From: Planctomycetota bacterium
Lineage (GTDB): Bacteria > Planctomycetota > Phycisphaerae > Phycisphaerales > Phycisphaeraceae
Reading direction: 5' to 3'
Assembly (NCBI GenBank): GCA_024276075.1
Contig: JAJRXX010000032.1
Coordinates: 1-57,791, forward strand
Length of the DNA: 57,791 bases
Below the pieces are notes generated by a model, which was not told where the DNA came from, searched no databases, and saw only the letters and a list, made by a program, of their open reading frames with translations. The position numbers were made by a program, and so were the translations under genes. Positions 12,174-57,791 of the stretch are shown one piece after another (position 1 is the first letter of the stretch; the number at the start of each line of letters is the position of its first letter).

Positions 12174-12277
12174 CGCAGGTGGCAAAAATATTCGCCATCC
12201 CGGTGGGTCGCTGGTGCGCCACGTATCTGTGTCTCACGGCCTGCAAGCAAGCCGTGCCACCCGACTAACGGAGATTA
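12171..12277 (+). repeat. Family A palindromic element, degenerate, cut by another element
   Basis: Begins TAGCGCAGGTGGC (compare TAGAGCAACTGGC in intact copies), includes the hairpin at 12235-12256 and the trailing CCACCC, and reaches GGAGATTA, where the 102-bp element at 12278 interrupts it. The right end is not recognisable beyond. Confidence 0.6.
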
Positions 12278-12379
12278 TACCAATCAAGATTAATACTTGC
12301 GCGGCATCTGCGAACGCGAAGGCAAAACAGACAATAACTTACATCCTTTACAACGCGCTAGAACGATACGCAATGCGTA
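12278..12379 (+). repeat. 102-bp element (family C), copy 1
   Basis: Starts TACCAATC and ends ATACGCAATGCGTA, flanked on both sides by TTA. A second copy of exactly the same length is at 57537-57638; by eye about 16 of 102 positions differ. It contains no ORF. Confidence 0.75.
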
Positions 12380-12380
12380 T

Positions 12381-12490
12381 TAGAGCGTTTTCTGATTTCG
12401 CATGGGGGGTTCTCAGCGAGCCGCGCGCGTCAGCAAGCGGTTTTTGGGCTCTAAGGGGCCCGCTCCCTGACGATCGCGGCTCGTTGTGGG
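12381..12490 (+). repeat. Family B element with core, right end lost
   Basis: Starts TAGAGCGTTTTCTGATTTCG, identical to the left end of 32122-32253. The left arm GAGCCGCGCGCGTCAG is roughly complementary to the core arm CTGACGATCGCGGCTC (12468-12483), so the core can fold back on its own element. Confidence 0.65.
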
Positions 12491-22230: not shown

Positions 22231-22308
22231 ATTTTTCGCAGCAAAGAAGCTCGCTCCCTGACGGTCGCGGCTCGTTGTAGACACTACACGTGGATTGAGA
22301 ACGTTCTA
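22228..22308 (+). repeat. Core-bearing repeat starting at the atpD stop codon
   Basis: TAAATTTTTCGCAGCAAAGA matches, with a ~10-base gap, the lead-in at 23606 and 44369 (ATTTTCGTGCTTCAAT then CAGCAAAGAA). The core CTGACGGTCGCGGCTCGT follows at 22258-22275. It ends at CTA, shared with the next element. Confidence 0.6.
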
Positions 22309-22431
22309 GAGTAACTGGCGTCAATATTCTCCATCTTGATTGGATCGCAGGTGTAACAGACATCTGCATTTCACGGCTTGCAAGCAAGCCGTGCCACCCG
22401 GTCAATGGAGAGTAATCACGCAAAGTGATCC
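22307..22431 (+). repeat. Family A palindromic element
   Basis: Left end TAGAGTAACTGGCGTCAATA, a perfect hairpin at 22372-22393 (arms CACGGCTTGC / GCAAGCCGTG) followed by CCACCC, and a right end inverted to the left one (ATGGAGAGTAATCACGC). About 125 bp, the same size and order as 34344-34470. Confidence 0.75.
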
Positions 22432-22459
22432 AGCGACGAGTGAACACGCTTGCGGTACG

Positions 22460-25371: not shown

Positions 25372-26151
25372 TTGAAAAAGCATCTCGTTTTAGCCGCGGT
25401 TTCGACCCTGCTCTTGTCACAGTTATCGTTGGCAAAGACGCTTGAGTGGTCCGGCTATGAGTGGCATGTCAAGACCAGCGAAGAGCCGTTTGGTCCCGGG
25501 CCCAATATGTGGTCGGATGCTGGCGATTCGGTGTGGGTCGACGGGCAAGACCGGTTGCACCTGAAGATCCGCAACATCAACGGCCAATGGCATTGTGCTG
25601 AGGTGATGAGCACCAAGTCGCTCGGCCACGGTCAATACATCTTTTACCTCGACAGCCGTGTCGATAACCTCAACGCCAACATCGCGGCGGGGCTGTTCGT
25701 ACACTCAGATGACCAAAACGAAATCGACATTGAGTTCTCTAAGTGGGGCCAAGAGAGACGGTACACACATCATCAATTTGTTCTTCAGCCACGCATCGAC
25801 GACACCAACCTGCACCGCAGCGATTGGCGAGTGAAAAGCCCACGGTCTACGCACGGGTTTATCTGGTCAAACGACGAGGTGCGGTTTAGAAGCTTTACCG
25901 ATCACGTAATCAAGGGTAAGCGTGCTATCAAGCGGTGGAACTACGCCGGCCCCAATAACCCTGTTCCCAACAATGAGAAAGTGCATATCAACCTTTGGCT
26001 GTACAAAGGCGCTCCGCCCACGGATGGCAGCGAAGCGATACTGGTCGTGAGCAAGTTCATCTTTGTCCCGCTGGCCGACCTGAACCGCAAGAAACAAAAA
26101 GACGCCATGACAGCCATTCCCAAGGTGAACTGGGACTACTTGGATCAATAG
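25372..26151 (+). CDS. Secreted GH16-family glycoside hydrolase
   Basis: 259 residues from TTG at 25372, chosen because AAGGGAG (25361-25367) precedes it and the product then begins as a standard signal peptide, MKKHLVLAAVSTLLLSQLSL. An upstream in-frame ATG lies at 25351. The jelly-roll has the GH16 catalytic motif NEIDIEFSKWG near residue 117, with nucleophile and acid/base Glu around the central Asp. Enzymes of this family cut beta-1,3 or beta-1,3/1,4 glucans, agar, carrageenan or xyloglucan; the substrate cannot be read here. It acts outside the cytoplasm. The TAG stop is the first three bases of a repeat element (TAGAGCGTCC). Confidence 0.85.
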   Translation: MKKHLVLAAVSTLLLSQLSLAKTLEWSGYEWHVKTSEEPFGPGPNMWSDAGDSVWVDGQDRLHLKIRNINGQWHCAEVMSTKSLGHGQYIFYLDSRVDNLNANIAAGLFVHSDDQNEIDIEFSKWGQERRYTHHQFVLQPRIDDTNLHRSDWRVKSPRSTHGFIWSNDEVRFRSFTDHVIKGKRAIKRWNYAGPNNPVPNNEKVHINLWLYKGAPPTDGSEAILVVSKFIFVPLADLNRKKQKDAMTAIPKVNWDYLDQ

Positions 26152-26380: not shown

Positions 26381-26609
26381 TAGAGCAACTGGCGTCATTA
26401 GAGCACCTTGCATAAATAATCGCCATGTCAGTTCTGGAGTAGGGCAGGTCATTGACCTGCCTTCTTCTTGGGGAGATGGAGAATAATTACGCAAGTTGCT
26501 CTAATCTTCATTGACCGGGTGGCACGGCTTGCTTGCAAGCCGTGAAATACAGGTGTTTGTTACACCTACTATCCAATCAAAATGGTAAATATTGACGCCA
26601 GTTGCTCTA
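26381..26609 (-). mobile_element. Family A element interrupted by a nested 105-bp element
   Basis: Ends TAGAGCAACTGGCGTCAT and ATTGACGCCAGTTGCTCTA are inverted repeats. The perfect hairpin is at 26523-26544. Removing the insert at 26399-26503 with one TA leaves about 126 bp, the family A length. An equivalent junction without this insert is at 57458-57480. Confidence 0.85.
26399..26503 (+). mobile_element. 105-bp MITE-like element, copy 1, flanked by TA
   Basis: Begins TAGAGCACCTTGCATAA and ends TTACGCAAGTTGCTCTA (inverted). It contains the hairpin GGCAGGTCA/TGACCTGCC. Identical base for base, as far as I can read, to 57687-57791. The outer TA at each end is the target duplication. Confidence 0.88.
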
Positions 26610-34343: not shown

Positions 34344-34470
34344 TAGAGCAACTGGCGTCAATATTCTCCATCTTGCTTGGATCGCAGGTCTAACAGACAC
34401 CTGTATCTCACGGCTTGCAAGCAAGTCGTGCCACCCCGCCAATGGAGATTAATTACGGCAAGTGCTCTGA
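34344..34470 (+). mobile_element. Family A element, intact
   Basis: 127 bp. Left TAGAGCAACTGGCGTCAATA and right ATTACGGCAAGTGCTCTGA are inverted, extending inward over TTCTCCAT/ATGGAGA. Central hairpin at 34409-34430 (one G-T pair) followed by CCACCC. No ORF. It ends 21 bp before the purD promoter. Confidence 0.82.
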
Positions 34471-57457: not shown

Positions 57458-57688
57458 TAGAGCAACTGGCGTCATTAATCTTCATTGACCGGGTGGCACG
57501 GCTTGCTTGCAAGCCGTGAAATACAGATGTTTGTTATACCAATTCAAATTAATACTCGCGCGGTGTCTACGAACGCGAAAACAGGGCAGACAATAACTTA
57601 CATCACTTACAACGCGCTGGAATGATACGCAATGCGTATTACACCTACTATCCAATCAAGATGAAAAATATTGACGCCAGTTGTTCTA
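57458..57688 (-). mobile_element. Family A element interrupted by the 102-bp element
   Basis: Opens TAGAGCAACTGGCGTCATTA and closes TATTGACGCCAGTTGTTCTA (inverted); the perfect hairpin is at 57497-57518. Its first 22 bases give the empty site for the insertion at 26399. It is itself split at 57537-57638. Confidence 0.82.
57537..57638 (+). mobile_element. 102-bp element (family C), copy 2, nested
   Basis: Starts TACCAATTC and ends ATACGCAATGCGTA, flanked by TTA on both sides. The host sequence without it is seen at 26555-26575 (GTTTGTTACACCTACTATCC). Confidence 0.82.
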
Positions 57689-57791
57689 GAGCACCTTGCA
57701 TAAATAATCGCCATGTCAGTTCTGGAGTAGGGCAGGTCATTGACCTGCCTTCTTCTTGGGGAGATGGAGAATAATTACGCAAGTTGCTCTA
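57687..57791 (+). mobile_element. 105-bp MITE-like element, copy 2, at the window end
   Basis: Same 105 bases as 26399-26503. It abuts the family A element, sharing its terminal TA, and ends with the last base of the window. Confidence 0.85.

Follow-up and report, generated by a model that had tools for sequence, protein, structure and literature searches.

At positions 26381–26609 of the window, by which is meant the whole stretch of 57,791 nucleotides of Phycisphaeraceae DNA that was analysed, one short repeat lies inside another, and the locus raises the question of what the inner element is, how it came to lie there, and what it carries. A first-pass annotation of the sequence had read a family A repeat split at a TA by a 105-bp element, with an uninterrupted copy at 57458, and had taken the insert for an IS630/Tc1-mariner-type MITE; the coordinates and sequence of both the filled site and the second copy are borne out (Table 1). 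The nest lies between convergent ORFs ending at 26151 (+) and 26628 (−). The repeats do not occur by chance: TAGAGCAMCTKGC, with up to two mismatches allowed, has 13 matches in the window against 2.85 expected, a number that none of 100 shuffles reached.

Table 1. Coordinates of the repeats and their parts in the window.
Feature	Position	Strand
Family A element, 126 bp when unfilled, interrupted by the 105-bp element	26381..26609	+
105-bp element, TA to TA; among the 41/64 identical copies	26399..26503	+
Left terminal inverted repeat of the 105-bp element, TAGAGCACCTTGCATAAATAATCGCC	26399..26424	+
Right terminal inverted repeat of the 105-bp element; minus strand reads TAGAGCAACTTGCGTAATTATTCTCC	26478..26503	-
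REP1 core of the 105-bp element, GTAGGGCAGGTCATTGACCTGCC	26439..26461	+
REP2 core of the split family A copy, GTGGCACGGCTTGCTTGCAAGCCGTG	26519..26544	+
Family A copy, empty at the joint, with a different insert	57458..57688	+
Single TA at the empty joint of the 57458 family A copy	57476..57477	+
REP2 core of the 57458 family A copy	57493..57518	+
Insert of another repeat family (repeat D10), TA to TA, in the 57458 copy	57535..57641	+
Second 105-bp copy, adjoining family A and running to the contig end	57687..57791	+
REP1 core of the second 105-bp copy	57727..57749	+
Older family A copy; one end unrecognised at 3 mismatches; limit 22432 inferred from 35-base spacing	22307..22432	-
Older family A copy; one end unrecognised at 3 mismatches; limit 34469 inferred from 35-base spacing	34344..34469	-

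The figure of 105 bp for the element includes both flanking TAs. The filled and empty copies had been said to differ by exactly that length; the insertion does run from TA to TA, but the net gain is 103 bp, made up of 101 bp and a second TA. Likewise, the copy at 57458 carries a single TA at the joint (positions 19–20 of family A, the TA within ATTAAT), yet it is not the intact empty site that had been described, as a second insert of 107 bp, both flanking TAs counted, occupies another TA of family A. The 26381 copy is the empty site for that insert, so the two copies form a reciprocal filled/empty pair. The 105-bp copy at 57687 is identical to the element at 26399, shares the terminal TA of the 57458 family A copy, and ends exactly at the contig end. 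The family to which the 107-bp insert belongs, also found at window positions 12275–12382, begins TATACCAATT and ends ATACGCATTGCGTATTA, and its relatives elsewhere hold 105-bp inserts of their own (C57:27532, C39:16478, C63:9672). A further family in this genome (G000) has TAGAGCATTTTC ends and a GAGCCGCGACCGT-AGGG-GCGG stretch (C7:48198–48326, C11:4921–5049, and window repeats D2 and D19); repeat family D2, with this stretch, has nine copies in the window at 60% identity or more.

Querying the whole genome with a 29-bp left-end pattern identified 70 copies of the 105-bp element, 61 exact and nine with one mismatch, and the reversed-pattern control identified none. Contigs C14, C30, C56, and C77, as well as the window (at 57791), terminate within the element or at its edge, and 70 may therefore be a lower bound of the copy number. 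Five copies were left out of the complete-copy counts, namely those at contig ends (C14, C30, C77, and window 57687) and a chimera at C39:3411; the remaining 65 comprise 64 of 105 bp and one of 97 bp. All 65 have TA at both ends, the right-hand TA being required by the script, and all of the five excluded copies but the chimera are explained by contig ends. The TA is preceded by C or T in 60 of 65 copies and followed by A or G in 59; the full YTAR context is present in 54, as compared with 329 of the 1808 TA sites of the window.

Junctions were compared within an examined sequence of about 229 kb (with overlaps) out of the 2.88-Mb genome. Seventeen of the 65 copies lie inside older repeats of which another copy is at hand (after 4 of 21 junction matches, which joined a copy to its own locus, were dropped), and for 14 of these the relative has a single TA at the joint; three copies have only relatives that differ at the TA, and 48 have no relative in the examined sequence. 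In a random-site control, 23 of 400 window TA sites (7 of 81 in the YTAR subset) match such repeats; the 105-bp element is thus found in older repeats at a higher rate than expected, although enrichment of the examined sequence in such repeats calls for caution. The family A joint is spanned by 49 other non-self places in the examined sequence, 48 of which have the TA, and family A has been struck three times at this same TA, in both orientations (C24:26399, C7:58125, and C15:26647, the last in a family A copy that carries a small deletion next to the joint). The two contrary patterns named by the first-pass annotation, a different sequence at this joint in other family A copies and missing TA duplications at most other 105-bp copies, are therefore both absent, and the further empty sites that it proposed to look for exist. 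At C4:70431–70578 (L383/L384), a TAGAGCATTTT-type element apparently sits at a TA (GAT-TA-ATC) of a variant family A, the same family A TA that is used elsewhere by the 105-bp element. Another 105-bp copy, at C74:1594–1700 (L041), interrupts a further IS630 transposase gene in its DDE domain, the two parts of which match DDE_3 positions 1–52 (below the curated cut-off) and 57–145 (above it).

The two families differ in their apparent age. Among the 64 copies of 105 bp, 41 have no mismatch to the reference, 17 have one, three have two, two have three, and one has four, for a mean divergence of 0.49%. The family A consensus of 126 bp was drawn from 33 copies of exactly that length, out of 79 REP2 matches in the examined sequence, 41 of which have both ends in place; these 126-bp copies are 1–11 bases off their consensus, so family A looks older than the 105-bp element and looks like an older layer, in agreement with the nesting. 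A third family, of 103–104 bp, was found in two copies (C25:54476–54578, L387; C15:26776–26879, L055:877–980).

A feature new to the present analysis concerns what these elements enclose: judged by its sequence, the centre of both the 105-bp element and family A appears to be a REP. REP1, at positions 41–63 of the 105-bp element, is GTAG-GGCAGGTCATTGACCTGCC, a GTAG head and then a palindrome whose 9-base arms enclose 1 nt; REP2, in family A, is GTGG-CACGGCTTGCTTGCAAGCCGTG, with a GTGG head and 10-base arms around 2 nt. At one mismatch or fewer, REP1 is present in 4 of 61 genomes (G000, 74 places; G010, 18; G012, 12; G045, 5), and REP2 has 128 matches in G000, 60 in G012, and a single one in each of G004 and G010. 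The same cores flank RAYT genes. In G045, three REP1 copies surround a RAYT domain on both sides (705+, 756−, and 1370− in L215); in G000, two mutually inverted REP2 copies bracket a RAYT domain (C7:8484 and C7:9048, or 985+ and 1549− in L220), one of the two copies falling inside the frame as called, before the domain. The respective RAYT proteins score 185 and 94 bits against NF047646 (cut-off 80). All four Y1_Tnp matches of G000 were examined, and no REP1-flanked RAYT was among them.

Within the examined sequence, TAGAGC ends flank 67 of the 71 exact REP1 cores on both sides, three on one side, and one on neither, figures that are biased upward as this set was mostly collected via the left end of the element. 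For the 69 exact REP2 cores, mostly collected via the core itself and in contig order, the corresponding numbers are 42, 20, and 7, and two of the seven without recognisable ends are the RAYT-flanking ones. Conversely, every one of 133 TAGAGC end pairs spaced 60–450 bp contains REP1, REP2, or both, in sequence largely collected by the same end and core patterns. A core-independent search of the whole genome returned two places at a smaller size (one with half a REP2, the other the 97-bp copy with REP1) and nine at a larger size, with one in the reversed control. Four of these nine involve a 105-bp copy or the 103-bp family; the other five belong to or involve the TAGAGCATTTT family, and no such core was seen in the sequence parts inspected, so that the presence of a REP is claimed solely for elements of the TAGAGCAmCTkGC type. 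A REP2 variant, GTGGCACGGGTTGCTTGCAACCCGTG, with a compensated stem change and no TAGAGC ends nearby, was observed at C8:7596, C17:6610, and C25:46056.

The core also appears to be kept. One G000 copy and one G012 copy of the 105-bp element differ by 18 mismatches, none of them in the 23 core sites (P = 0.007 under random placement). Among the 64 G000 copies, positions 30–105 show no change in the core and 24 changes outside it; as these fall at 11 distinct sites, core conservation seems modest once shared ancestry is allowed for. The G012 relatives of family A are identical in 26 of 26 core bases by construction, having been picked by the core, and carry no evidential weight. The 103–104-bp family has GTAGGGCAGGACATTGTCCTGCC, a REP1 variant in which the two strands of the stem have changed in concert; conservation and this compensated change together favour, as far as sequence comparison goes, upkeep of the hairpin.

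The shared core may be read in other ways. The REPs could be leftovers of the MITE, which would have come first, its hairpin being adopted later by a RAYT. The REP2 cores with one end or none, the RAYT-flanking pair included, are what such decay might leave, and truncated QMITE2 copies of Coxiella have been interpreted as REPs along these lines (PMC5896051). However, the 13 REP1 cores inspected among the 23 of G010 and G045 have no TAGAGC end at three mismatches or fewer within 60 bases upstream and 90 downstream (a few matches appear in the same flanks at four mismatches), and the full-length 105-bp element was not found in either genome; moreover, GTAG-headed REPs are described across phyla (PMC3733652, in the part concerned with their distribution). 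This order of events is accordingly judged unlikely. A second reading, in which the element is a plain IS630-type MITE and its central palindrome an internal hairpin serving as a terminator or folding aid, would account for the strong folding of the 105-bp single strand (z = −5.2 and −5.4 on the two strands; none of 200 shuffles as good) and fits the statement that MITE transcripts generally form stem-loops (PMC5896051, in the section that treats them). It leaves unaccounted for the presence of identical 23-base and 26-base cores to either side of RAYT domains, in G045 and this genome respectively, as well as the REP1 cores without ends in G010 and G045, and we consider it quite improbable. 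Movement of the 105-bp element by a RAYT through its REP, with incidental ends, deserves very little credence: the core is kept in all 65 complete copies, the 97-bp copy included, yet the unit gained or lost is bounded by terminal inverted repeats and TA rather than by the REP, and for the insertion events read here this route is refuted by junctions at the inverted repeat and TA. Recombination or assembly error as the source of the filled and empty sites is scarcely credible either. In its favour, the draft consists of 77 contigs, and a contig end cuts or terminates 4 of 70 copies; against it, 14 copies in different backgrounds have single-TA relatives and both orientations occur at the same family A TA.

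The reading of the 105-bp element as an IS630/Tc1-mariner-type MITE is supported by several lines of evidence: it is short and non-coding, leaving no room for a gene, its ends pair imperfectly over about 26 bases, single-TA empty relatives exist for 14 of 65 copies, and an IS630 element with a TAGAGC end is present in the genome. Of the kind that the first-pass annotation proposed to seek, an IS630-family element with a TAGAGC end lies at C45, but it is broken. This element begins TAGAGCAGATTGCGTGAATAATTG; its DDE part scores 135.7 bits against NF033545 (IS630 transposase; cut-off 100) and its first ORF matches HTH_Tnp_IS630. That ORF contains a stop where its G012 relative is open, and the right end lacks the TA. 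No intact IS630 element with such ends was found in the G000 draft; as the one IS found there that bears them is broken, the draft did not yield the transposase responsible for the recent burst. The genome contains five DDE_3 matches, four over the cut-off; the four loci other than C45 (C6, C68, C74, and C76) have no TAGAGC end pair of their own at three mismatches or fewer, and those at C68 and C76 are shorter, such that an end may be missing. The C68 locus (L042), at a contig start, consists of an IS630 fragment followed by an open frame with the Cas9 domain PF18470.

End identities, counted ungapped in the register of best fit by eye, are 19/24 and 19/24 for the left end of the 105-bp element against the two C45 IS ends, and 17/24 and 16/24 for its right end; for the 103–104-bp family they are 21/24 and 20/24 on the left and 18/24 and 16/24 on the right. 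The relative G012 offers a second view of this pairing. Transposase matches at E 1e-10 or better occur in 16 of 61 genomes (G000 included), the closest outside G000 being that of G012, at 78%; of these 61, no genome but G000 and G012 has a full-length 105-bp element, which in G012 is 80–83% identical and lies in at least eight places, 14 of its 23 candidates having been scored. Extending the search to 51 family members, for the most part genomes of the same set, brought no third genome with the full-length element; none of the 60 relatives or 50 family members belongs to the same genus. Of 11 REP1 cores inspected in G012, seven have both ends and four do not. The relative that has the 105-bp MITE also has an IS630 element with TA-bounded TAGAGC ends, with an end identity of 15–18/24 as compared with 16–19/24 for G000:C45. 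The G012 MITE ends match the G000 IS at 20/16 and 17/13 of 24 and the IS of G012 itself at 15/17 and 16/14; they are no closer to the latter.

TA-bounded inverted ends were recovered at 4 of 30 transposase loci (L123, L125, L143, and L151), all of which begin TAGAGC; the other 26, the G000 locus included, have no such end pair. In the IS630 elements L123, L125, and L039, from three genomes, two ORFs are separated by a change of frame at one and the same position (it recurs in G012 and G057), which looks like a normal, programmed-looking feature of this IS group.

Taken together, these data suggest, with high probability, that the 105-bp element is a non-autonomous IS630-type mini-transposon that inserts at TA and carries a RAYT-type REP as cargo. 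An IS630-family transposase, presumably the acting enzyme, would recognise the TAGAGC... ends of about 24 bp; the element would move as double-stranded DNA, and its insertion at a TA, which is duplicated, is read from the empty sites. At 26399, it landed in an older family A copy with ends of the same type. With GTAG- or GTGG-headed hairpins at the centre of both elements, of the kind that elsewhere flank RAYT genes, REP copies would have spread as cargo by the IS630 route, whatever the RAYT does. The REP was probably captured by the MITE, rather than the reverse, and a RAYT may still act on the core at present.

A nested MITE with an empty site is ordinary by itself; it is the fusion of two mobile systems that raises the interest of the locus. 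IS630-type ends and a RAYT-type hairpin appear to be joined in three families here and in a second genus, and at least three families keep the REP at a fixed place while their arms diverge (105 bp with REP1, 103 bp with the REP1 variant, and 126 bp with REP2). It is possible, if rather doubtful, that an IS630-type MITE is the carrier of RAYT hairpins in this Phycisphaeraceae lineage, with a RAYT or the host maintaining the core and the IS630 ends spreading it; if so, a single 105-bp unit would bring two unrelated chemistries of transposition into cooperation.

Among bacterial elements, Correia elements and RUP insert at TA. Both are named as IS630-derived bacterial MITEs (PMC2817692), and both resemble the 105-bp element in being short, bounded by terminal inverted repeats, and non-coding; however, the passages of that paper that deal with them mention no RAYT-type REP core. 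The nearest precedent found is QMITE2 of Coxiella burnetii, as described in the relevant sections of one account (PMC5896051) and also covered in part of a review (PMC10969869): a MITE with a GTAG REP, present in tens of copies, and itself a landing site for another element. Unlike the 105-bp element, QMITE2 is 150–190 bp long and has direct repeats of 7–11 nt instead of TA, and those sections name neither IS630 nor RAYT. A QMITE2-like element was rejected for the present locus, where repeats of 7–11 nt are absent and the empty sites show that TA alone is duplicated. In the literature searched, which covered few subscription journals, no description of an IS630/TA-type MITE carrying a RAYT-class REP core was found.

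The cores themselves agree with REP/REPIN and RAYT systems, as outlined in parts of three papers, in their GTAG or GTGG head, palindrome, many copies, and flanking of RAYT genes (PMC2817692, PMC3116915, PMC3733652); GTAG-headed REPs and RAYTs are also recorded there in Planctomycetes and in R. baltica. Those treatments, however, regard a single REP or a pair of REPs as what moves, whereas most copies in the sequence examined here lie inside TAGAGC ends and are gained or lost within a TA-inserting unit. The mechanisms of REP dissemination are called poorly understood in a passage of another paper (PMC8266576). Here the REP would travel by another route, whose filled and empty sites are directly readable, such that the role of the RAYT becomes separable from hitchhiking; genomes with the same cores mostly inside terminal inverted repeats (G000 and G012) and genomes with them outside (G010 and G045) provide a natural comparison.
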